Both the position numbers and the translations under genes were made by a program. DNA of 64,000 nt from Clostridia bacterium. Its GTDB lineage: Bacteria > Bacillota > Clostridia > Oscillospirales > Acutalibacteraceae. This document shows positions 3 through 48,884 of this stretch, in pieces; positions within the stretch are counted from its first letter, which is position 1, and every line of letters starts with the position of its first letter. Under the pieces are notes generated by a model. That model saw only the letters and a program-made list of their open reading frames with translations, was not told the origin of the DNA and searched no databases. The DNA is taken from NCBI GenBank assembly GCA_017379935.1, contig JAFNVC010000028.1, positions 49,920-113,919 on the forward strand. Direction: 5' to 3'.

Positions 3-3000
3 TACCTTCCTCTTTCTGATATGGATGTAACACCCGGAACGGTGAAAACGATTAAAATATATGATTCTATTGAGTGTAGTGCGGAACTCAACGGCGCAAA
101 CACATCATACTGCTGTTACAATGAAGGTGTTCTCTGGACGGGCAATTTCCATTTCTGGAATGAAGACAAATATGACCAGTGGGCACACCCGGAGTATAAG
201 AGCATGCTCGTCGGATACAGACTTAGCGGTAACGATTCAACTGAGGAATGGAACAATCTGACTAAAGCTGAAAACGGAGAGGCGAAATCGGACTGTGCGG
301 GTAACCCGACATATGTAGTTGCGATTGACAACAGTATCGACCGTATTCAGTATGCGATGGTTGATAAGGGTAAACTATACATCAGCCGTTCATGGTCTCG
401 ATATGAGTCAGACAACCACATACGAGAGCTTGATGTCTGTGATTTCGACCTTAATGATCCCGGTAACATAGAGATTACCATAAATAACGTAAAAAGACGA
501 GGACATTATGTAAGCTTGGATAATGTAACACGTTTTGGTGGAGGTAAAGGTGAAGCAGGCGCCAAAAAGTGTCTGTATATGGGCGAAGCTCTTTGTGTTA
601 TTGATGACTATCTCTATATTTTTGGCGAGGGTGCAGCGTATAACTATCGTGTGCTTAAATCAAATGATCACACTTGTGAAGAGCCTATCGATGTTATCTG
701 GAAAATCGACCAGCATGCTATTATAGGCAATCACCGACCGGCTGAAGAGCTTGATGCCAGCCATTACGAAAAGGTGAACAGTCTCAGTGATATTACACCT
801 GAGGATGAATATATTATTCTTCATAAATCTCAGCTTAAGGACCCTGTTACACAGAAGGAGATACTCTATCTGCTTAATTCCGATGGCGGTTACGGCATCC
901 GCAAGCTTCCTAAGGATGATAATCCTACCTCGCTGAGCACAGGCGACTCTGTAGGTATGCTTCCGTATACTATCACAAGATATTCGGAAGAGGATAACGG
1001 AGAAATCCTCCATATTGAAAGCACGGATGACGAAAACCGTTCAATAAGATGGAAAATCAGCGGAGCAAATTCAGGCAATCTCAGAATTGCTAATGTGGAT
1101 AATTATTACGAAAATCACCCGTATCTGTTCTTTACGGGTCGACATATTGTAATGTCATCGACAAGCAATACACTTTTGTCGGGAATGCAGCTGTTACCGG
1201 TTGAAGGTAAACCCGGCACCTTCTACATTGCAAGCACAAGAGCTAATTTCTATGAATCTTATCTCTGGTGTAATGACGGTACTGTTCCCGAATATATAGA
1301 TAAGTATACAAATTATTACCAGAGCTATGCATACAATTTAGGTAACTATAACGGCCACGTTGAGGTTACAGGTACATTCCACCCGGATGCAACCGGTACG
1401 GCATACGGAAAAGGAGATCAGGGATCCGCAACAAAAGACCTTATAGGTACAGCCATTACCGAGGACCAGTATTATCTCGGCGAGTTCAACATTTACAAGA
1501 GAATAGAGAATCAGTCGGCATCTACTGCTGAGACCCGTGTGTATACCGATCTTGACCTTGCCTTGCAGGCGGACGGCACTTATGACCTTACTCTTGAGGC
1601 TTATACAGTAGGTGATAAGCAGATCGCAAAAACAGAAAACAACTCAAAACCCACAGACTATGTTTTTGTTGTTGACGCATCCTCGAGTATAGCGTATGAG
1701 GAAGGTGATGGTAGACATGGAGATTCATCGGGATTCATACGTTGGGGCGGTACTGACAGACCAAATGAAGATTTGCGCTACAATTCAATTGCGGCAGGTA
1801 AGATATATGCGCTTCATGCCGCTGACGGTAAATATTATAAATTAACGGTTGGTACAGATGTAGAAGGAGATGAGCCATCGCAACATGGTTGTGAGAGCAA
1901 ATGCACTGTATGGATCTCTTATTGGCATGAGCCGACCCAAACAAGGTATTATGCAAATTATAAGGTGGGAGAAGATTGCATAGCGACGTTTACAACAAAT
2001 AGGCCCCAGAAAGGCAATGACGATGCTCTTAATATAGCTTGCAAACCGGATAAACTTGACGATAACAATCCGATTGTCTTAAAAAAATTCCAACACTTTG
2101 AAAAGTATACCGGTAATGCGAGCCGAAGGGCAGCTCTTAACACTCTTGTTATTGAAATGTCCAGACAGATTTTTGAACAGGATACTAAGAATCGTGTTGC
2201 TTTTGTTCAGTTTGGCACATCGCAAAATGCGATTACGGGCTCTGCATGGCAGAATTCAGGCTTCTATACCAATTCTTCAACATCTATGATTAGCGCCGGT
2301 ACCACGGCGACAAATGCACAGTATGCGGCAGCCTTCCATTCAGAGTCACAGTTTGCTAATCTTCAGCAAGCAGTTTTGACTATGCCTGTAGGTGGTTCGG
2401 ATAAACAGGCTGAGGTAGGAATGGATTTGGCAAATAAAATCCTCAAAAACAGCGGCTACAAGTATTCTGCTGATGATGAGAGAAATGCATGTGTTATTCT
2501 CATAACAGATAATGCCGCAGGATACAGCAATGATAAGAATCAGACAACCATAAATGCAACAGGCTGTTGTAATTCAACGGTTATGAATGCAAAATACATT
2601 AAAGATCAGCACGCTATTGTTCATACGATCAGATTGCGTGAGGATGCAAATCCGTCGGGCTTTGACGTTGACGGATATCTTTCCTGTGTATCATCAGAAT
2701 ACCCCGATGCGAGAAGAATGACAAACCGAGGTACAAAGAGTGCATTAAATATTGATTATACCCATAATCTGACTTCATCAAGCTTTGATTGTTTTGCGCT
2801 TTGTACGGAAATTTTCAATTCCATTCAGCCTAGTAAGGACTATACTACGATGAAGCTGGATGCGGATACATATATCCGAGAAAACATCAATCTTGAAGCC
2901 TTCAATATGGCCGTAGCAACGCCGGCTCTGATTGCTACGGCGGATGGTCACTATGACGGCTTAGGCAGATTGTATTTTGATGAGCCTAAACCGGTTAGCG

Positions 3001-5096
3001 AATCTAGCGGCATTAAGTCTTCTATTACCACCGAGGCGGACGGAACAAGCTCTATCGTTGCTCACGGCTTCAACTTTACGGAACACTATCTTTCACCGGA
3101 CAGAGCGAGCGGAACCGGACAAAAGCTTGTTATCAAATATTCAGGACTTACACTTAAATATAATCCGGACAGCACAAGTGATTATATTGTTAATACCGCT
3201 ATCGACAATCCTAACAAGACTGCGCTTTACAGATCTGAAGCGTATATGAAGGCGAATGATCCGTACAAGGGCTTCCCGTCAGAGCATCTGTCCGTTCCGC
3301 AGTACACATACGTTCTTGACTACGGTATTGATATGCTTGACAGAGATATTAACGGAAAGCTGATTTCTGTTGATACAGATTTGCGGAAGCAGAGCTCCTA
3401 TAAAGACAGTGTGACTTCGGAAAATGCTCAGTTAGAGTTTGTTGACAATTCCGAGAACATGCTCTATCGCATTGGAACCGATGCAACCGATATATCTAAG
3501 CAATACGTTCTTATCCAGCGACCTAACGGTGATTATGACTGGTTTGGCATTAATATTGTTCCTGCATCAAATGTTTATTATGAAGATGCACAGATAACCG
3601 TACCTGACCGAACATCTTCAGATGAACACAAATGGACGACAGAAGGAACAGCAAGCTTTAATTCGCAGGCCGTTGAAATCCAGAACGATATTTACGGTTA
3701 CGATAAGAATTACGCAAATGATGATTCGAATTTCTCCAATAACACGGCGCTTAAATCTGTCGTCAGTGAATCCAACAGACAGAGCGACAAGGCAACGTTT
3801 ACCTTTACGGGTGAAGGCTTTGATCTGTATTCTGCCTGCGGCACAACAACGGGTGTTCAGGTTATTGCCATCAGAGATTCGAGCGGCGCTTTAGTGAAAT
3901 CGTATGTCATTGATACCTATTATAATCAGGCGGACTATAACCAGACATTCACTCAGGTTCCGATCCTCAGATTCAAGTGCCCGGCAAACAGTACCGGAAG
4001 CACTTACGGCACATATACGGTTGAGTCCACCGCAGCATACCTTCCGAGTATTTCGGGCGCAATCAAGGCTCAGAGCGTTTCGACACAGCTGATCGACGAA
4101 AACGGTGTTGTTTCTTACCCCTCAGAATACGCCGAAACATATGAAAACGAAATTCTCAGAGAGCTTGGCTTCGAAGAACTCATCGGAGAGGATGTAGAAT
4201 TTATCAGCTTCAGCGATGATTCCGTTCTCAACGGCGGCGAGGGTCCGTTTGCGGTTGAAGAGGGATCCTTTACCACGCAGTCTGTAACAGAGCTCGAAAA
4301 CTACATTGACGGCTACCGCATCTATAATCCTTGCGGAGATGACTCCGAAGTAATGGCTCATTATCCAAATTCGGAAAAGGGTGCGAAATATTATAACGTA
4401 ATAGATATCCTTGATGATGCAGACAGCTTTGGCGGCAGCGCTTCTGATGGAATTTATTACGAAAACACAGGCAGTGTTCTTGAATCTGTGACATATAAAT
4501 CTGTCGGAACACCGAAAAATGAATTCTATCTCAAGGCATCAAATGCAAATACCTTATCGTTCAAGATTCCGAATTGGGATAAGAATACGATGAGTGTAAT
4601 GGTTTCAGCTCGAGCTGCATACGGCAGCCCGAAATTAAAGGTACACACCGGCGAAATGGCTATTGACAGCAAGACGGAAATGTATTATAATGTTACGGAT
4701 TTCATTACAGATGATGGAAAACTTGTTATCAGCAATTCTGGCGATGGTCTTTTAGCACTTAACAATATCAAGATAGTTGATCCGTCAAGTGCTCCGAGCT
4801 TTACCTTCGAAACAGCAGGTACCGCTGAAGAAATTCAGCTTTTGCTGGATGTTGATGCAGAGTTGGTAGATTTCAATGCTCCGAAGGTTGAAACAGAAGA
4901 CTATCCGCTTCCGGAACCTGACATTTTTGTTCCGGGTGTTTCAGATGATTCGGATGACGACGCAGATGTTCCTGATGAAAAACCTGAAGAACCCACCAAT
5001 GACGGCTTCTTTAACAAGGTTGATAATTTCTTTACAAATACCGGAAACTTCTTCAAGAACATCATCAAAAAAATCACCTCATTTTTTAAATCTTAA
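3..5096 (+). CDS. Giant VWA-domain surface protein, 5' end outside window
   Basis: The frame is open from the window edge, so the gene is cut at its 5' end; the first Met is at base 21 and residue numbers count from there (1691 residues remain). A von Willebrand factor A domain spans about residues 545-945. Its MIDAS motif DASSS is at 552-556, followed by an unusual insertion of roughly 130 residues, then the helix RRAALNTLVIEMSRQIFEQD and the later MIDAS aspartate in LITDN near 830. The C-terminal third is beta-rich and repetitive in style. The end is an acidic linker (DDSDDDADVPDEKPEEP) and a Phe/Lys-rich tail with FF pairs every seven residues. No LPXTG-type sorting signal is present. VWA domains usually bind ligands through a metal ion, so an adhesin role is inferred. 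The signal peptide would lie upstream and cannot be seen. Confidence 0.85.
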   Translation, partial: YLPLSDMDVTPGTVKTIKIYDSIECSAELNGANTSYCCYNEGVLWTGNFHFWNEDKYDQWAHPEYKSMLVGYRLSGNDSTEEWNNLTKAENGEAKSDCAGNPTYVVAIDNSIDRIQYAMVDKGKLYISRSWSRYESDNHIRELDVCDFDLNDPGNIEITINNVKRRGHYVSLDNVTRFGGGKGEAGAKKCLYMGEALCVIDDYLYIFGEGAAYNYRVLKSNDHTCEEPIDVIWKIDQHAIIGNHRPAEELDASHYEKVNSLSDITPEDEYIILHKSQLKDPVTQKEILYLLNSDGGYGIRKLPKDDNPTSLSTGDSVGMLPYTITRYSEEDNGEILHIESTDDENRSIRWKISGANSGNLRIANVDNYYENHPYLFFTGRHIVMSSTSNTLLSGMQLLPVEGKPGTFYIASTRANFYESYLWCNDGTVPEYIDKYTNYYQSYAYNLGNYNGHVEVTGTFHPDATGTAYGKGDQGSATKDLIGTAITEDQYYLGEFNIYKRIENQSASTAETRVYTDLDLALQADGTYDLTLEAYTVGDKQIAKTENNSKPTDYVFVVDASSSIAYEEGDGRHGDSSGFIRWGGTDRPNEDLRYNSIAAGKIYALHAADGKYYKLTVGTDVEGDEPSQHGCESKCTVWISYWHEPTQTRYYANYKVGEDCIATFTTNRPQKGNDDALNIACKPDKLDDNNPIVLKKFQHFEKYTGNASRRAALNTLVIEMSRQIFEQDTKNRVAFVQFGTSQNAITGSAWQNSGFYTNSSTSMISAGTTATNAQYAAAFHSESQFANLQQAVLTMPVGGSDKQAEVGMDLANKILKNSGYKYSADDERNACVILITDNAAGYSNDKNQTTINATGCCNSTVMNAKYIKDQHAIVHTIRLREDANPSGFDVDGYLSCVSSEYPDARRMTNRGTKSALNIDYTHNLTSSSFDCFALCTEIFNSIQPSKDYTTMKLDADTYIRENINLEAFNMAVATPALIATADGHYDGLGRLYFDEPKPVSESSGIKSSITTEADGTSSIVAHGFNFTEHYLSPDRASGTGQKLVIKYSGLTLKYNPDSTSDYIVNTAIDNPNKTALYRSEAYMKANDPYKGFPSEHLSVPQYTYVLDYGIDMLDRDINGKLISVDTDLRKQSSYKDSVTSENAQLEFVDNSENMLYRIGTDATDISKQYVLIQRPNGDYDWFGINIVPASNVYYEDAQITVPDRTSSDEHKWTTEGTASFNSQAVEIQNDIYGYDKNYANDDSNFSNNTALKSVVSESNRQSDKATFTFTGEGFDLYSACGTTTGVQVIAIRDSSGALVKSYVIDTYYNQADYNQTFTQVPILRFKCPANSTGSTYGTYTVESTAAYLPSISGAIKAQSVSTQLIDENGVVSYPSEYAETYENEILRELGFEELIGEDVEFISFSDDSVLNGGEGPFAVEEGSFTTQSVTELENYIDGYRIYNPCGDDSEVMAHYPNSEKGAKYYNVIDILDDADSFGGSASDGIYYENTGSVLESVTYKSVGTPKNEFYLKASNANTLSFKIPNWDKNTMSVMVSARAAYGSPKLKVHTGEMAIDSKTEMYYNVTDFITDDGKLVISNSGDGLLALNNIKIVDPSSAPSFTFETAGTAEEIQLLLDVDAELVDFNAPKVETEDYPLPEPDIFVPGVSDDSDDDADVPDEKPEEPTNDGFFNKVDNFFTNTGNFFKNIIKKITSFFKS

Positions 5097-42738: not shown

Positions 42739-45700
42739 ATGGCATCCGTAAACAGCGAATATCTCAAAGACCATAAGCTGTACAGAGTACGTAACAAAAG
42801 AATAATTGCTTTATTTCCCCTGGTTGCCGTTATTGTTGCAATTTCGGTTTTCTGGTGTCTTAAGCTGGTCGGCATTACGATTACGAGCGACGCGCTGTGC
42901 GAGCTGGAGGAGCATACACATATCAGCAGCTGCTATTCAGGCGAGGAGCTTATCTGCTTCAAGCCCGAGCACACTCACACCGCCGAATGCTTCCCCGACA
43001 GAACGGTTGACACGGAAACGGCAAACGATTGGGTAAAAACGCTCAGCAAGGTTACGCTGACAAACAATACTGCTGAAAATCTTATTTCCGTTGCGATCTC
43101 GCAGGTCGGCTACAGCGAAAGCGACCGTAACTATCAGTACAATGCACTTGCTGAAAAGAGCAGCTACACCCGCTACGGCGAATGGTACGGAAGCCCTTAC
43201 GGCGAATGGAACACGATGTTCGTTTCCTTCTGCATCGGTCACGCGAACATCAACGGCGCAGAAAGTCTGTCAAGCGCATCTGCCGAGTCGTTGAGACTTG
43301 CGTGGGAGAACCGATTGGCTTATGCCTCTGCCGAAAGCTATGACGGACAGAGAGGTGACGTCGTCTTCTTCGATACGGACGCGGACGGCAGGGCTGACCG
43401 TACGGGTATTGTTTCTTATAAGTCGGAAACACTCTTCGGATACATCGAGGGTGATGTTGAAGGTAAGGTTGAAAGCATCGTTACGAAGAAAGCCGAGAGC
43501 ATTTTAGGCTACGGCAAAACGAGCACGCTTTCTGCGGCGGAGAATATCACATCAACAGATGCCGGACAGTCCGGAACAGGTACAGTCAGACCCGTGCTTG
43601 AGGGCGAGCTCGTGCGTTATATCCCGAACGAGGTAACACGCACTACATATAATCTCAGACGCTCTGCCGTACAGAGCATATACGACAGCGAGCCGCTGGT
43701 GATGATGACGGCATCAAACAACAATATCACCTATACATCTGACCTTACGGGTGTGCTTTCAAACGCTGTGTTCAAGGATACGGCAGGCAACCCGATCGAG
43801 AACAACGGAACGGTTTACATCGGACAGACGTACGTCATTTCTCTCGAATTCAGCGAAATCAATACGGGTAATAAGTGGATTCAGTTTGAGCATAATGCGA
43901 ACGGCGTATTGACTTATCAGATACCCTCCAACCTTCAATGTGAGCCATTCGACAGCTGGCATAAAATTTCTGCCAAGACAGAAAACGGAATGATCACGGA
44001 CGTTGGTGAGTATTACATTGACGAAAACGGACTTTTGCAGGTTAAGTTCTATGACGATGCAAACGGAGAGAACTTCGTTGATAAATATTCAAACGTTGAC
44101 TTCGTAATTGATTTCAGCGCGACGGTTGCGGAATCGCAGTCGGGCAACAAGACAGAGGTTGATTTTAACGATAATATCCACATTGACCTCAACGTTGACG
44201 GTAACGCGGGCGTGTCGGTCGAAAAGGTACACGGCGAATATAATGACGAGGATGCTACGGTTGATTTCACCATCAAGGTTGAAGCAACTCACGGTCTTGT
44301 AAAGGATCTCTTTATCACTGACGATATCTGGGAAAACCACCACGCGCTCAGAGACACGATAGTGGTAACTGACCTTGACGGCAATCCGATCGTTCCTCAG
44401 CCGACAATAAGCGACCATACTAATCCCCAGCTGAACGCCGGCTTTTCGCTTTCCGGTTTCCCCGATTTTTCGGCCGGTGAAGGCTTCCTTATTAAATATA
44501 AATCACAATTCAACGACAACATTCTCACTCAGGATTCGGGCGGTATGTGGAACCAGGCGAACGCTTTCGGTAACAATGCCAACGGCGGTTCGATCACAAA
44601 CAAGTACGATGATGACTGGATTTCGGTTGAGTTCAACAAAATTGAGAAAGACGGTAAAATGACTGTTCTAGAGGATGCAAACGGCAACAAAATCCCCGTG
44701 ATCGAGTGGGGCGTCGGCATAAGAAAGACTGCTACAGACATCCAGGGCACGGTTGTTATTGATACACTCGGTGAGGGTCTTGCGTATTATACGGATCAGC
44801 CGATTATTATCAAGCGTTATGATGCCAATGGCAAGGAGCTTCCCGATTCATACCTCAGCTGGGATGACGTCACAATCACAACCACCAACGGCAACACCTC
44901 GATGCAGTTCGCTCTTCCTTCGGGATATGCCTTTGATATTATTTATTACACGACCTTCCCGCCTCTTGCCGAAGGCGAGACGGCAACACATACAAACCGC
45001 GTTGAAGCGGTAATCAACACGAAGCCCGAGGGTACATACGGCTCGGCAGACGTTATCGGCTTTGTTCCCGAGCTTAAAAAGAGCGCAAGCGGTGACGACG
45101 GCGAATATGTCAACTTTTCACTTGAGGCTGATGTTTCCAAGGCAATCAAGGATTGGGGTTACTTCTACCTGACTGACCTTGCGGCATTCTGGGGCTACAA
45201 AAACAACGAAGCCGGATATCTCTACGTCGAGAACTTCCCCGAAGACCTCGTGATAACCGCAACAACAAAAAGCGGACAGGTGATAACCTTCACTCCTTAT
45301 GTCGAGGGTCAACCCGCGGAGAACACGTATATGCTCGTTGCTCCCGGATTCAGTAAGCCGGGAGTCGAGGATTTATACCATACCTTCAACATACTGTTCA
45401 ACACAGCGGATAAGACGTATGAATCGTCAAAATGGTTGCTGGACGAGGATGCAACTCTTAAGATAACCTACAAGCTTCCGTTCGATGCGAAAACAGGTAC
45501 CAACTGGACAGGAATGCTGGACGGAGACAAGACGGTAGAGGATGTGCTTCTTGAGGGCTACTCTTTATCAAACGAAGCTTACCTCAATTTCACGCAGGCT
45601 ATCACGGCGGTTTCCAGTGTAAACTATAAGTATTCTCCGATGCTAACCAAGAAGGCACATGTCAATGAGGACGGCACTATTGATTACACGGTTGTGTTCA

Positions 45701-47097
45701 ACAACACGGTTCCCGGCTCGGGCGGTAACACAGGATACCTGAACAGCGGCACGTGGAACATTGTATTCAACGATACCTTTGACGATAAGCTTGAATATGT
45801 CAAGGATTCACTTACGCTGACCGCCTATGACCCATGGAACGATAACCGATGGTATGCGAAATATAAATATTACGGCGAGGCGGACGGCAACACTCTTGAA
45901 ATCCCCGCAGATGAGCTGCTTTATTATGATTTCAACGATGACGTAACCTGGACGGATATTAAAAAAACCAAGAATTTTGCAGAGTATTGCAAAATGGTCA
46001 CCGCGGGCGGCAGGCACATTTACACCTATCAGCTTAAGCTCAAGGATGAATATATCAACACGACCGATTATTCAAAGCTGCAGCTTGATAACGTGGCTGA
46101 GCTGACGTGGAATGCGGATAAAACCTCCGGCCCTGCGGACGAAACGGTCGAATTTGAAACGGGACTCCTTGACAAGCAGGTTGTGCAGGATCAATCAACG
46201 CTCGACTTCGGCGTTCACATCAATCGCGGCGCGTTGGATCTTCTCGAGGGCTCGGAAACGCTGACGATTGAAGATACGATGACGGAAAATATTTCCGTTT
46301 ACTGGGAATCAATCAAGCTTCAGTATTATGACGAGCAGAGCCAAGCCTGGGTTGATTTCGACTCGGCGCAGAGCAGATATACCTACGATATTACCTACGA
46401 CCCTGCGAGCAACAAGCTGACGTTCGTAGTCCCCGATGAGCTTCATATCATCATCGATTATAAAACGCTTATAACGGAAAGCGGCTACGTTTCGGTTAAG
46501 AACTCAATCGTCGTTGTCGGTAAGGCAGAGGTCACGGATATGGTCGATGCGGTGTTCAAGGTTGAAGGACACAGCGGCGGCGCCTCAGGTTCAAACCGCG
46601 AGATAACGCTGCTCAAGCAGGACGGTCTGACGAACGCACGATTGCCGAACGCAACGTTCGCGCTCTACGGCCAGATGAGTGACCTGAACCTGACTCTGCC
46701 GAGCGGTGTTCCGAGGACAATAGTCACTGAGGACGGCATAACGCTCACCTACATCGGCTCTTACACAACAGGCGCGGACGGCTCAGTCAACGTTGAATCG
46801 CAGTACCTTACCCCGGGCGGACCGTACGCGTTCGTTGAGCTTGTCGCCCCCGAAGGATATGAGCTTTTGGATAAGCCCGTATACTTCTACTTCTACGATA
46901 CGGATCCTGACGGATTCATTCAAAGCGTTACCACCCTTATAGCAATCGAAAATTTCTCGGGAGGCTTTCTCATTCCCGAAACGGGTGGTAACATATTAAT
47001 CACGGCAATAATCGGCTTTGCCGCAACGGCAGCTCCGATTTTGTATAGTTTGATTCGTCGTAAACGGGAAAGGAGGCTTAAAAACCTCCTTGGCTAG
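42739..47097 (+). CDS. Large sortase-anchored pilus tip/adhesin protein with CHAP-like domain
   Basis: The 1452-residue protein has a membrane segment at about 22-46, which serves as signal sequence. Two short Cys/His units follow (CELEEHTHISSC and CFKPEHTHTAEC, residues 54-84). Residues about 112-235 resemble a CHAP/amidase domain, but the usual cysteine position reads GEWNTMFVSFC (Asn158) and the usual His-Val-Gly-Ile is RTGIV (221-225), so activity is doubtful. A long beta-rich adhesin region follows, then an SpaA-like domain (TNARLPNATFALYG) near 1310. The C-terminal sorting signal is IPETGG (1412-1417), a membrane segment and RRKRERR. The stop codon TAG is formed at the edge of an inverted-repeat element (see 47097-47360). 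Confidence 0.88.
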   Translation: MASVNSEYLKDHKLYRVRNKRIIALFPLVAVIVAISVFWCLKLVGITITSDALCELEEHTHISSCYSGEELICFKPEHTHTAECFPDRTVDTETANDWVKTLSKVTLTNNTAENLISVAISQVGYSESDRNYQYNALAEKSSYTRYGEWYGSPYGEWNTMFVSFCIGHANINGAESLSSASAESLRLAWENRLAYASAESYDGQRGDVVFFDTDADGRADRTGIVSYKSETLFGYIEGDVEGKVESIVTKKAESILGYGKTSTLSAAENITSTDAGQSGTGTVRPVLEGELVRYIPNEVTRTTYNLRRSAVQSIYDSEPLVMMTASNNNITYTSDLTGVLSNAVFKDTAGNPIENNGTVYIGQTYVISLEFSEINTGNKWIQFEHNANGVLTYQIPSNLQCEPFDSWHKISAKTENGMITDVGEYYIDENGLLQVKFYDDANGENFVDKYSNVDFVIDFSATVAESQSGNKTEVDFNDNIHIDLNVDGNAGVSVEKVHGEYNDEDATVDFTIKVEATHGLVKDLFITDDIWENHHALRDTIVVTDLDGNPIVPQPTISDHTNPQLNAGFSLSGFPDFSAGEGFLIKYKSQFNDNILTQDSGGMWNQANAFGNNANGGSITNKYDDDWISVEFNKIEKDGKMTVLEDANGNKIPVIEWGVGIRKTATDIQGTVVIDTLGEGLAYYTDQPIIIKRYDANGKELPDSYLSWDDVTITTTNGNTSMQFALPSGYAFDIIYYTTFPPLAEGETATHTNRVEAVINTKPEGTYGSADVIGFVPELKKSASGDDGEYVNFSLEADVSKAIKDWGYFYLTDLAAFWGYKNNEAGYLYVENFPEDLVITATTKSGQVITFTPYVEGQPAENTYMLVAPGFSKPGVEDLYHTFNILFNTADKTYESSKWLLDEDATLKITYKLPFDAKTGTNWTGMLDGDKTVEDVLLEGYSLSNEAYLNFTQAITAVSSVNYKYSPMLTKKAHVNEDGTIDYTVVFNNTVPGSGGNTGYLNSGTWNIVFNDTFDDKLEYVKDSLTLTAYDPWNDNRWYAKYKYYGEADGNTLEIPADELLYYDFNDDVTWTDIKKTKNFAEYCKMVTAGGRHIYTYQLKLKDEYINTTDYSKLQLDNVAELTWNADKTSGPADETVEFETGLLDKQVVQDQSTLDFGVHINRGALDLLEGSETLTIEDTMTENISVYWESIKLQYYDEQSQAWVDFDSAQSRYTYDITYDPASNKLTFVVPDELHIIIDYKTLITESGYVSVKNSIVVVGKAEVTDMVDAVFKVEGHSGGASGSNREITLLKQDGLTNARLPNATFALYGQMSDLNLTLPSGVPRTIVTEDGITLTYIGSYTTGADGSVNVESQYLTPGGPYAFVELVAPEGYELLDKPVYFYFYDTDPDGFIQSVTTLIAIENFSGGFLIPETGGNILITAIIGFAATAAPILYSLIRRKRERRLKNLLG

Positions 47098-47360
47098 GGA
47101 AACAGTACAAATCCGAACCCGTCTGAAAGTCGTTATTTTATCGGCTTTTTGGACGTATCGGGTTTGAAAAGGAATAGGTCTTACTGTACCCTAAGCCACT
47201 GAAATTTCTGAAAGCTTTGTTGCAGGGGGACAGAGCTTTTCAGAAATTTAATAGGTTGTTAATCTTGGCGAAACACAAAAATCTCTCCGATTTTTTGCGC
47301 TTTGCCGAAGGGGCGGCGAAATCCGGCTAATAAAACGGGCTCGGATTTTAACTGTTTCCC
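47097..47360. mobile_element. 264-bp structured inverted-repeat element (MITE-like or cis-acting RNA) between tip and major pilin genes
   Basis: The terminal repeats 47096-47121 and 47336-47361 are inverted copies: GGGAAACAGT at one end and ACTGTTTCCC at the other, then ATCCGA and CCCG blocks, about 25 of 28 positions pairing. Both ends are flanked by TA (47095-47096 and 47361-47362), as expected for a TA target-site duplication. Inside are three further stem-loops: 47121-47154, 47202-47249 (18-19-bp arms) and 47267-47306. No open frame of useful size is present. The left TA supplies the first two bases of the tip-protein stop codon. It fits a miniature inverted-repeat transposable element; it would also be transcribed as the leader of the major pilin gene, and may act as an RNA element. 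Only copy-number or structure analysis can decide. Confidence 0.7.
47202..47249. repeat. Long hairpin inside the intergenic element
   Basis: AAATTTCTGAAAGCTTTG (47202-47219) pairs with CAGAGCTTTTCAGAAATTT (47231-47249) with one bulge and one mismatch or wobble, leaving a purine-rich loop with AGGGGGA. It is the central arm of the structured element. Confidence 0.85.
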
Positions 47361-47426
47361 TATGCTGACCCGAATATGATGAAGAAAACAAAATTGCAAA
47401 TTAAATTATAGAAAGGAAGTAAGTTT

Positions 47427-48884
47427 ATGAAGAAATTATTTGCAGTTTTAATGGCTATCGCACTCGTTCTCTCTATGGGAACAACAATGGCATTTGCAGC
47501 AGGTGACGGCACAATTACAATTGAAGGCGCAATCGATAAGTCAACTTATTCTGTCTACAAGATGCTTGACTTTGCTCCTACAGCTGGCAGCAATGATAAG
47601 GGTATCTACACAATCGCTAACGGTTGGGAAGCTTTCTTCGTATCAGCACCTGCTACAGACTACTTTACTAAAGTTACACAGGGCGGTCAGACAACAGTTG
47701 TTCTTAAGGACGGTGTAACTGCTGTTGATCAGACTCTTGCAAAGGCAGCAGTTGCTTATGCTAAAGCAAACAGCATAGGCGCTACAAAGACTGAGACAGC
47801 TAACGGCGAAACTGTAGAGTTTACAGGTCTTGATCTTGGCTACTATGCAATCGACACAACTGTAGGTACACTTTGTGCACTTACACCGACAAGCACAAAC
47901 TTTACAGCTATTGAAAAGAACGAAAAGCCTGACATCGACAAGTTCGTTCAGGAAGACAGCGAAATCAACAACGCTGACGAAGGTTGGGGCAAGGTTAACG
48001 ACGCTGATATCGACCAGAAAGTTAACTACAAGTCAACAATCACAGTCGGTAAGGGCGTTACAAACTATGTAATGCACGATACAATGGAAGCAGGTCTTAC
48101 ATTCAATAACGACGTAACTGTTGAGCTTGCTGACGGCACAGTTGTTGATGCTGATAACTACACTGTAACAGTTTCTCCTGCTGATGGTCACACATTTGAT
48201 GTTGCATTTAAAAATGAATTCATTGCAACACTTGCACAGGGCATACAGTTCACAGTTTACTACTCAGCAACTCTTAACGAGAATGCTAACATCGTAGATG
48301 ACGGTAACGACAACACAGTTAAGCTTACATACGGTGAAGACAACACTTGGGAAACAGCTGAGCACAAGACAACAACATACACATGGAAGATGGATGTTTT
48401 GAAGTTCACAAATGACGGCACAAACAATGTTCCTCTTGCAGGCGCTAAGTTCCAGCTTCTTGATAAGGATGGCAAACCCATCACTTTCTCAGAGGTAGCA
48501 GGTGCAGCAGTTCCTACTTACAAGGTAGATGCTGAAGGCACAGTTACAGAGATCACAACTACTGCGGACGGTAAGTTCGAAATCGTTGGTCTTGACGAAG
48601 GCGCATACAAGCTTCGCGAGACAGAGGCTCCTGCAGGTTATAACAAGATCGCAGCAGATCTCGATGTAATTATCACAAGCGAGTACGATGAAGCAGCTCT
48701 CACAGCTACATACGAAATCAACGATGCAACTCCCGCAACAATCGAAGTAGAAAACAAGACCGGCGGTCTCTTCCCCGAAACAGGCGGCATCGGTACAACA
48801 ATCTTCTACCTCGTTGGCGGTCTCCTCATGCTCGGCGCATTCGTATTCCTCGTTTCAAAGAAGAGAATGGCTACAGCTGCTTGA
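47427..48884 (+). CDS. Major pilin (SpaH/EbpB-like, sortase-polymerised)
   Basis: The 485-residue protein has a signal peptide (cleavage likely after AFA, residue 24), a candidate pilin-motif lysine at Lys172 in NEKPDIDKFVQED, Ig-like pilin domains and the E-box KLRETEAPAGY (395-405), which supports isopeptide bond formation. It ends with the sorting signal FPETGG (449-454), a hydrophobic span and SKKR. This is the shaft subunit joined by the class C sortase downstream. Its codon use differs from its neighbours (ACA for Thr, GCA/GCT for Ala, few ACG/CTC codons), consistent with very high expression. Its ribosome site is GAAAGGAAG. The frame continues after TGA with an acidic tail (see findings). 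Confidence 0.92.
   Translation: MKKLFAVLMAIALVLSMGTTMAFAAGDGTITIEGAIDKSTYSVYKMLDFAPTAGSNDKGIYTIANGWEAFFVSAPATDYFTKVTQGGQTTVVLKDGVTAVDQTLAKAAVAYAKANSIGATKTETANGETVEFTGLDLGYYAIDTTVGTLCALTPTSTNFTAIEKNEKPDIDKFVQEDSEINNADEGWGKVNDADIDQKVNYKSTITVGKGVTNYVMHDTMEAGLTFNNDVTVELADGTVVDADNYTVTVSPADGHTFDVAFKNEFIATLAQGIQFTVYYSATLNENANIVDDGNDNTVKLTYGEDNTWETAEHKTTTYTWKMDVLKFTNDGTNNVPLAGAKFQLLDKDGKPITFSEVAGAAVPTYKVDAEGTVTEITTTADGKFEIVGLDEGAYKLRETEAPAGYNKIAADLDVIITSEYDEAALTATYEINDATPATIEVENKTGGLFPETGGIGTTIFYLVGGLLMLGAFVFLVSKKRMATAA

Follow-up and report, generated by a model that had tools for sequence, protein, structure and literature searches.

Introduction

Several families of small bacterial repeats invite comparison with a structured block that lies between a pilus tip gene and a major pilin gene in a 64,000-nucleotide stretch of a Clostridia genome (hereafter the window, part of contig C1 of a draft assembly of 1.84 Mb in 36 contigs). 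The ERIC/IRU/RU-1 repeats, as excerpts of the sources describe them, resemble this block in their TA ends, target duplication and stable hairpin, and are co-transcribed with their neighbours, with an orientation-dependent effect on mRNA having been reported (PMC2229807, PMC2759123). RUP of Streptococcus pneumoniae is likewise small and intergenic, with terminal repeats and a TA target, and has its ends in common with the insertion sequence (IS) IS630-Spn1 (PMC2229807). According to excerpts of a further study, the density of RUP peaks 50-150 bp from genes, and pneumococcal RUP, BOX and IS are over-represented between convergent genes (PMC3049150). BOX, also of S. pneumoniae, shares with our block the supply of a stop codon to the upstream gene; the same excerpts give it as modular (boxA-B-C) and as encoding the stop in 36 of the 58 coding sequences that overlap it (PMC3049150). 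Finally, Chunjie, a miniature inverted-repeat transposable element (MITE) of Geobacter uraniireducens, is 235 bp long, with intergenic copies of which one lies in an operon, and a review states that it disrupts a phosphate uptake operon (PMC10969869).

Here we describe the block in the window as very likely a copy of a small, non-autonomous MITE-like family found in one Clostridia family of bacteria and placed before Shine-Dalgarno (SD) sequences, often in stop codons. As for operon damage by such elements, the title of the primary paper on Chunjie reportedly says that operon structure was not disturbed. The family is set apart by description from ERIC, which is 127 bp long and belongs to Enterobacteria, whereas the present elements measure ~276 bp, have two inner arms and often abut an SD with their right end. 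Unlike RUP, they lie mainly in same-direction gaps, and an IS630 partner was not found; unlike BOX, they are not modular and do not favour convergent genes. In the open-licence literature, no title or abstract opening described such a family, which is weak evidence of novelty. Judged from sequence, the block is a real inserted MITE-like element and the family is new as far as searched; with the same proviso, what is new relative to the known kind is the polarity of its placement at SDs together with the conservation of its two-arm interior.

Results

The element occupies positions 47095..47362 of the window on the + strand, 268 bp including a TA at each end, and represents subfamily A of its family; the stretch between the two TAs is 264 nt (47097-47360). 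Its terminal inverted repeats (left, 47095..47122, TAGGGAAACAGTACAAATCCGAACCCGT; right, 47335..47362; both read on the + strand) are 28 nt long and complementary at 25 of 28 positions, and their outermost TAs, at 47095..47096 and 47361..47362, form the target duplication. The sequence thus bears out an earlier reading of the window's letters (the original prediction), which had named near-perfect terminal repeats with TA on both sides. No other inverted repeat in the 64-kb window matched at 25 or more of 28 positions with outer ends within ~330 nt, and five shuffles of the window that kept local composition yielded none of equal quality. The element contains no open reading frame (ORF) of at least 80 amino acids. 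An independent profile, built from 28 copies with both pilus copies excluded (the one studied here and its counterpart in a second species), matched 47096-47362 over model positions 2-276 of 276 (E = 6e-24), its best match in the window off the element reaching only E = 0.62. Upon folding 47090-47365 as RNA, we obtained -105.5 kcal/mol (z = -7.2), with 0 of 200 dinucleotide shuffles as stable. All three hairpins that had been noted before are present in the minimum-energy fold, on the + strand: the first, noted at 47121-47154, appears as 47120-47155 and stretches outward to 47108..47166, the second (47202..47249) has perfect 12-nt arms, and the third (47267..47306) has 15-nt arms that are 80% complementary. 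An Rfam scan of 46900-47500 and of 15 family loci gave no match on the element at the gathering score.

The left TA and the element's first base (T47095-A47096-G47097) make up the TAG stop of the pilus tip gene (42739..47097, + strand), which encodes a SpaA domain and, near its end, IPETG. When the flanks were rejoined with a single TA, the tip frame remained open over YADPNMMKKTKLQIKL (16 codons) and then reached a stop, both points as originally predicted. Downstream, the major pilin gene (47427..48884, + strand; domain matches to pilin backbone, SpaA and an LPXTG anchor) is preceded by the SD region GAAAGGAAG at 47411..47419 (+ strand). Tip-like matches occurred in 20 genomes, other than the window's own, of the 398 searched, and we examined the 3' junctions of the ten strongest, which belong to six genera. 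The profile matched at none of these ten homologous tip-pilin junctions; a long frame starts 24-93 bp past the tip stop in nine of them, and the tenth locus stops at 188 bp. Nine homologous tips carry the motif RRKRERR, and eight of these end 2-3 residues past it and one 8 residues past it, compared with 6 here. Since eight of the nine end sooner past the motif and one later, we conclude that the tip is not cut short, and the proposal that insertion into the 3' end had truncated the gene was dropped. In the simplest history, an ancestral stop just upstream would have been lost once the element supplied a second one.

The same tip-pilin insertion is present in G002, a second species of the genus; comparing it with G000, the window's own genome, we found 91.4-92% identity for the element, 77% for the final kilobase of the tip gene and 82% for the pilin gene. 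The end of the tip gene and the leader that adjoin the element are conserved between the two genomes to a degree equal to or above that of the element itself. As a separate observation, the tip-pilin leader of element-free loci is alike across genomes (L244-L251, L253), with GGAGGTT..TCTCC, GCGACGGAGAATGC and AAATTGCAAATTAAA ahead of the SD.

The family is dispersed. A subfamily C query (ends TAGGGTGACG) gave matches in 10 of the 18 genomes of the genus (in G015 over 34 nt only), raising the count in G000 to five, namely the pilus copy, two copies on C17 and one each on C12 and C34; further copies lie in G002, G005, G013 and G014. Subfamily B comprises 276-bp relatives elsewhere in G002, which are 87-96% identical among the five compared. 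In a wider search that scored at most two candidates per genome, matches of ~276 bp came from 69 of 398 genomes and 35 of 135 genera, and the copies adjoin many different gene types. The dispersed copies that the original prediction had named as proof of a mobile element thus emerged through a related subfamily. Subfamilies B and C have a 19-nt motif that was found in 11 stretches in named genomes, of which 9 are Clostridia metagenome-assembled genomes from the gut of deer, sheep, goat and cattle, 1 is another Clostridia assembly and 1 is Saccharospirillum. Blastn searches of phages and plasmids with the pilus copy and one subfamily C copy returned no match, and exact searches of viral contigs with two patterns returned none either. 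A conserved-core motif hit one contig of a viral collection (L301, 5030 bp), in which the right end of a copy at ~647-924 reads CCCTAAGGAGG and lies before AGGAGG and a TTG start, among ORFs that look phage-structural by eye; this suggests a possible route of spread.

Most copies end in TA, and sites without them can be read. For the family-wide counts we took 112 copies scoring at least 45 bits, drawn from the matches in the genus and from 68 family loci (28 from the search and 40 from the upper part of 122 places), using a profile trained on 30 copies from the genus, both pilus copies included. Of these, 91 span at least 235 model positions, 89 have flanks, and merging 8 that share flanks left 81 independent sites. 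Of the 91 full copies, 75 have a TA on the left and 84 have one on the right. The end sequences differ between subfamilies (TAGGGTGA, TAGGGAAA, TAAGCAAA, TAAGCAGA, TAGCCAAA and others), and among 41 representatives the two ends of a single copy match each other at 16-24 positions out of 24. At a junction beside a MinD-like gene, readable in 17 of the 18 genomes of the genus, G000 holds a subfamily C copy and G002 a subfamily B copy, while the other 15 lack a profile match and have gaps of 9-54 bp in 14 cases and of 112 bp in G013. G014, whose MinD-like protein is the nearest to that of G000 (93%), has the element-free site TAAGGAGTGAAAACTATG, which, set against TA, element and TACGAGGTGAAAACTATG in G000 (a segment also written TAGGG...CCCTACGAGGTGAAAACTATG), is of equal length with three substitutions. 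In G014 the TA of this site is part of a stop codon overlapping the SD, and the rejoined flanks of G000 read TAC, reflecting either a later change of the third base or a different ancestor. Furthermore, G013 contains a composite in which a 278-bp TA-flanked element (ends TAGGGTATAGG / CCTATACCCTA; L148 ~2773-3050) sits at an inner TA of a subfamily C copy, and the composite recurs at two other junctions in G014, where it is broken by contig ends (L146, L147, L153). MITE insertion with TA duplication, as originally proposed, is therefore upheld by the dispersed TA-ended relatives, the pilus loci without the element, the length-matched empty site at the MinD-like junction of G014 and the nested composite.

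The right end of the element tends to lie directly before an SD. We called an end SD-adjacent when it lay no more than 30 nt from the start codon of a long frame with an SD-like core, a rule that overlooks genes shorter than 90 codons (e.g., at L128). By this rule the right end, read in the sense direction, is SD-adjacent at 37 of 81 sites (binomial p ~1e-22), and the left end, read antisense, at 7 of 81 (p = 0.37), which is no enrichment. The background was 435 of 6676 noncoding TA site-strands at the same loci (6.5%), or 1380 of 44703 (3.1%) when coding sites were included, with loci that hold two partial matches (e.g., L148, L170) entered twice in these counts. The commonest bases of the right flank are A-G-G-A-G-A (59, 38, 38, 42, 39 and 46 of 88), with G at +3 above A (22). 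Neighbouring genes run in the same direction with the element in sense at 47 of the 81 sites and antisense at 13; the neighbours are divergent at 10 and convergent at 7, and at 4 sites only one neighbour was called. Of the two strands, the antisense is the richer in terminator-like hairpins (11 of 41 copies vs 2 of 41 for sense at -8 kcal/mol or below; 5 vs 1 of 41 at -10 kcal/mol or below) and is usually the more stable when folded, the sense strand being lower in 8 of 41. Such hairpins and greater stability on the antisense strand may account in part for the sense bias.

The element also supplies stop codons to upstream genes. In 36 of 88 copies a sense ORF of at least 80 codons reaches or enters the left end, and in 20 of these it stops on the element's first codon. 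When the flanks were rejoined, 17 of the 20 stopped at the same codon, the three exceptions being both pilus copies and the MinD-like site of G000. Among the 17, L179 and L180 represent a single site, where both copies are probably antisense and their ORFs spurious; L054 has TC instead of TA at its right end.

We found the pairing of the interior to be conserved by compensating changes. In alignment A1, which holds 41 of the 91 full copies at less than 88% identity over 309 columns, the consensus consists of a terminal helix and inner arms, and both partners have changed in 38 of its 50 pairs. In a formal count, 93.2% of cells are paired and 333 are changed on both sides, vs a shuffle mean of 94 and 41-66 with slid partners. 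Further covarying pairs (e.g., columns 163-171 with 271-280 and 190-193 with 252-255) define a second arm, so that the element comprises a terminal stem and two long arms. A selected sense RNA is expected to tolerate G-U above A-C. Over four helix groups the mismatch totals are 64 G-T (15 of them from one pair) and 55 A-C: 28 and 29 in the terminal helix, 25 (15 at the one pair) and 20 in arm one, and 4/1 and 7/5 in the two hairpins; the listed pairs of arm two lean slightly to G-T, but the scan rule itself selects G-T. As G-T and A-C are about equally frequent in this strand test, which is uncalibrated, we read the pairing as a property of the DNA rather than of a sense RNA. It looks as if pairing is kept in the DNA, via recognition of ends and arms or via templated correction of the palindrome. 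Covariation alone is accordingly no proof of a functional RNA, given that pairing is conserved here without a clear preference for G-U over A-C.

We looked for a mobilising enzyme. The IS630-type transposase domain DDE_3 (PF13358) was present in 0 of the 18 genomes of the genus, where in draft assemblies absence is not final, and in 39 of the 398 family genomes. At 20 family loci with DDE_3 there was no profile match, and the candidate ends recognised in 6 of them did not resemble those of the element. Allowing up to three mismatches, we found no pair of element ends with a long interior among those listed for the 18 genus genomes, which are draft assemblies. Relics were seen at 14 loci whose ends are solo or degenerate, with no transposase noticed by eye among their neighbouring ORFs. 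Multi-copy IS are often missing from draft assemblies, so the absence of a matching transposase is not final.

Discussion

We read the block as an inserted element rather than a pilin-specific RNA because ten homologous loci lack it and because a profile that had seen no pilus copy recovers nearly all of it. Four features by which MITEs are recognised are found together: it is short and without a transposase gene, has terminal repeats, a TA duplication with an empty site, and dispersed copies. Several observations weigh against this reading. A plain BLAST search of its own genome with the pilus copy returned only itself and short matches; the notion of a family with a single copy in this genome was dropped after the subfamily C search had given four more. 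The pilus copy belongs to a divergent subfamily, ~65% identical to subfamily B, and is atypical in its placement: it ends 64 bp upstream of the pilin start rather than abutting the SD, and its rejoined flanks read TAT, which is not a stop codon. By the rule used, neither end has an SD at 37 of the 81 sites. The only preference in the flanks of these sites is a weak one for A at +1; the SD association is therefore not explained by a sequence motif on its own, and a target motif beyond TA was rejected. Across genera, the interior is kept better than expected for a decaying MITE. Finally, we infer movement from the pattern, because neither an autonomous partner nor a transposase was found.

The original prediction had raised the idea of co-option to set pilin expression. 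In this alternative, the element would have been recruited to act as a structured leader RNA, fixing the output of the major pilin relative to the tip. Its very stable fold, the two-sided changes at 38 of 50 pairs and its high identity between G000 and G002 speak for this, the bin that mostly covers the element ranking top of 39 bins of 268 bp (91.4%; next 91.1%, mean 78.2%). Covarying stems, which were to reveal a conserved pilin leader, do exist, but the element is absent from 10 of 10 homologous pilus junctions and its relatives stand beside many gene types. The G-T and A-C totals are not those expected of a selected sense RNA, with the reservation that the test is uncalibrated; the bases flanking the element are equally or more conserved, and the leader is alike in genomes without it. 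Moreover, high element identity is not special to pilins, because two other shared sites show a similar excess of 13-15 points over the left flank, L179/L180 (98.2% vs flanks of 82.8 and 81.7%) and L136/L139 (95.3% vs 82.0% on the left and 96.5% on the right). Among five other pairs of copies that share flanks, the element is above the left flank in two, equal in one and lower in two, one of the latter (L050/L135) joining copies from different subfamilies. At the pilus site, constraint is thus possible and not specific, and we consider a role in pilin expression quite unlikely.

A classical MITE of the IS630/Tc1-mariner type, mobilised by a transposase of the IS630 family whose own element has matching ends, would explain the TA target duplication and the terminal repeats, yet beyond the TA target nothing supports the type that was originally suggested: PF13358 is missing from the 18 genus genomes and confined to a tenth or so of the wider set, and no similar ends occur at the 20 transposase loci inspected. 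We regard this origin as doubtful. A non-mobile, old intercistronic structured element that was retained or lost at particular operon junctions would fit the interior conserved across genera, the strong sense bias and the sites common to different species. Presence and absence with TA duplication at the MinD-like junction, where two species carry two subfamilies, the nested composite at three junctions and the copy in a viral-collection contig all argue against it, making it very improbable.

Returning to a mobile, non-autonomous family, we suggest that transposition would be carried out by an enzyme acting in trans. The copies are strongly over-represented in short same-direction gaps, where the right end lies a little ahead of the next gene's SD and the left end often falls in the upstream stop codon. 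Insertion there should be near harmless: the element itself terminates the upstream gene, opening with TAG or TAA or offering a TGA a few bases further on, and duplication of the TA preserves the downstream SD. The excess of sense copies would perhaps stem from terminator-like hairpins in the antisense orientation or from an enzyme that reads an asymmetric target. The pilus copy lies in the tip-pilin leader of two species of the genus, the tip now ending on the element's TAG. More tentatively, and on balance somewhat improbably, the integration machinery may recognise the stop-codon/SD junction itself with fixed polarity and so set the right end immediately ahead of the ribosome-binding site, with the two-arm structure maintained at the DNA level over many genera; the element would then belong to a transposition system directed at the signals for starting translation. 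If the proposed account is true, a small mobile element has been spreading through operons near what should be the cheapest insertion spot, and same-direction genes in many gut bacterial genera have thereby come to be separated by a structured spacer of 276 bp. With the right end at SDs and the left end at background, its polarity offers a clear test of targeted integration against selection after random insertion.

Additional observations

The surrounding locus is a sortase-type pilus operon of signal peptidase, SpaA tip, major pilin, sortase, Cna_B protein and second sortase genes. Short relics of less than ~90 bp, consisting of solo or fused ends, were seen at L241 (~2175-2203), L157 (3035-3119), L158 (3019-3076), L238 and L234, the relic in L241 apparently lying at a junction that full copies occupy in G005 and G003. 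In other genomes of the family and order, hairpins in L028, L029 and L031 are identical over 20-21 nt to the terminal repeat of the window, and one in L036 matches it at 92% over 24 nt; these adjoin tRNA-like genes (by eye) and are perhaps terminators or chance matches. Near one family copy, L214 27-97 matched the Rfam Gut-1 RNA (56.5 bits vs a gathering score of 50), a T-box leader there remaining below the cut-off. By names assigned by eye, the L150 copy lies between dnaK-like and dnaJ-like genes, and the L149 and L175 copies lie before a pnp-like gene; the latter two have common flanks although their genomes belong to different genera.

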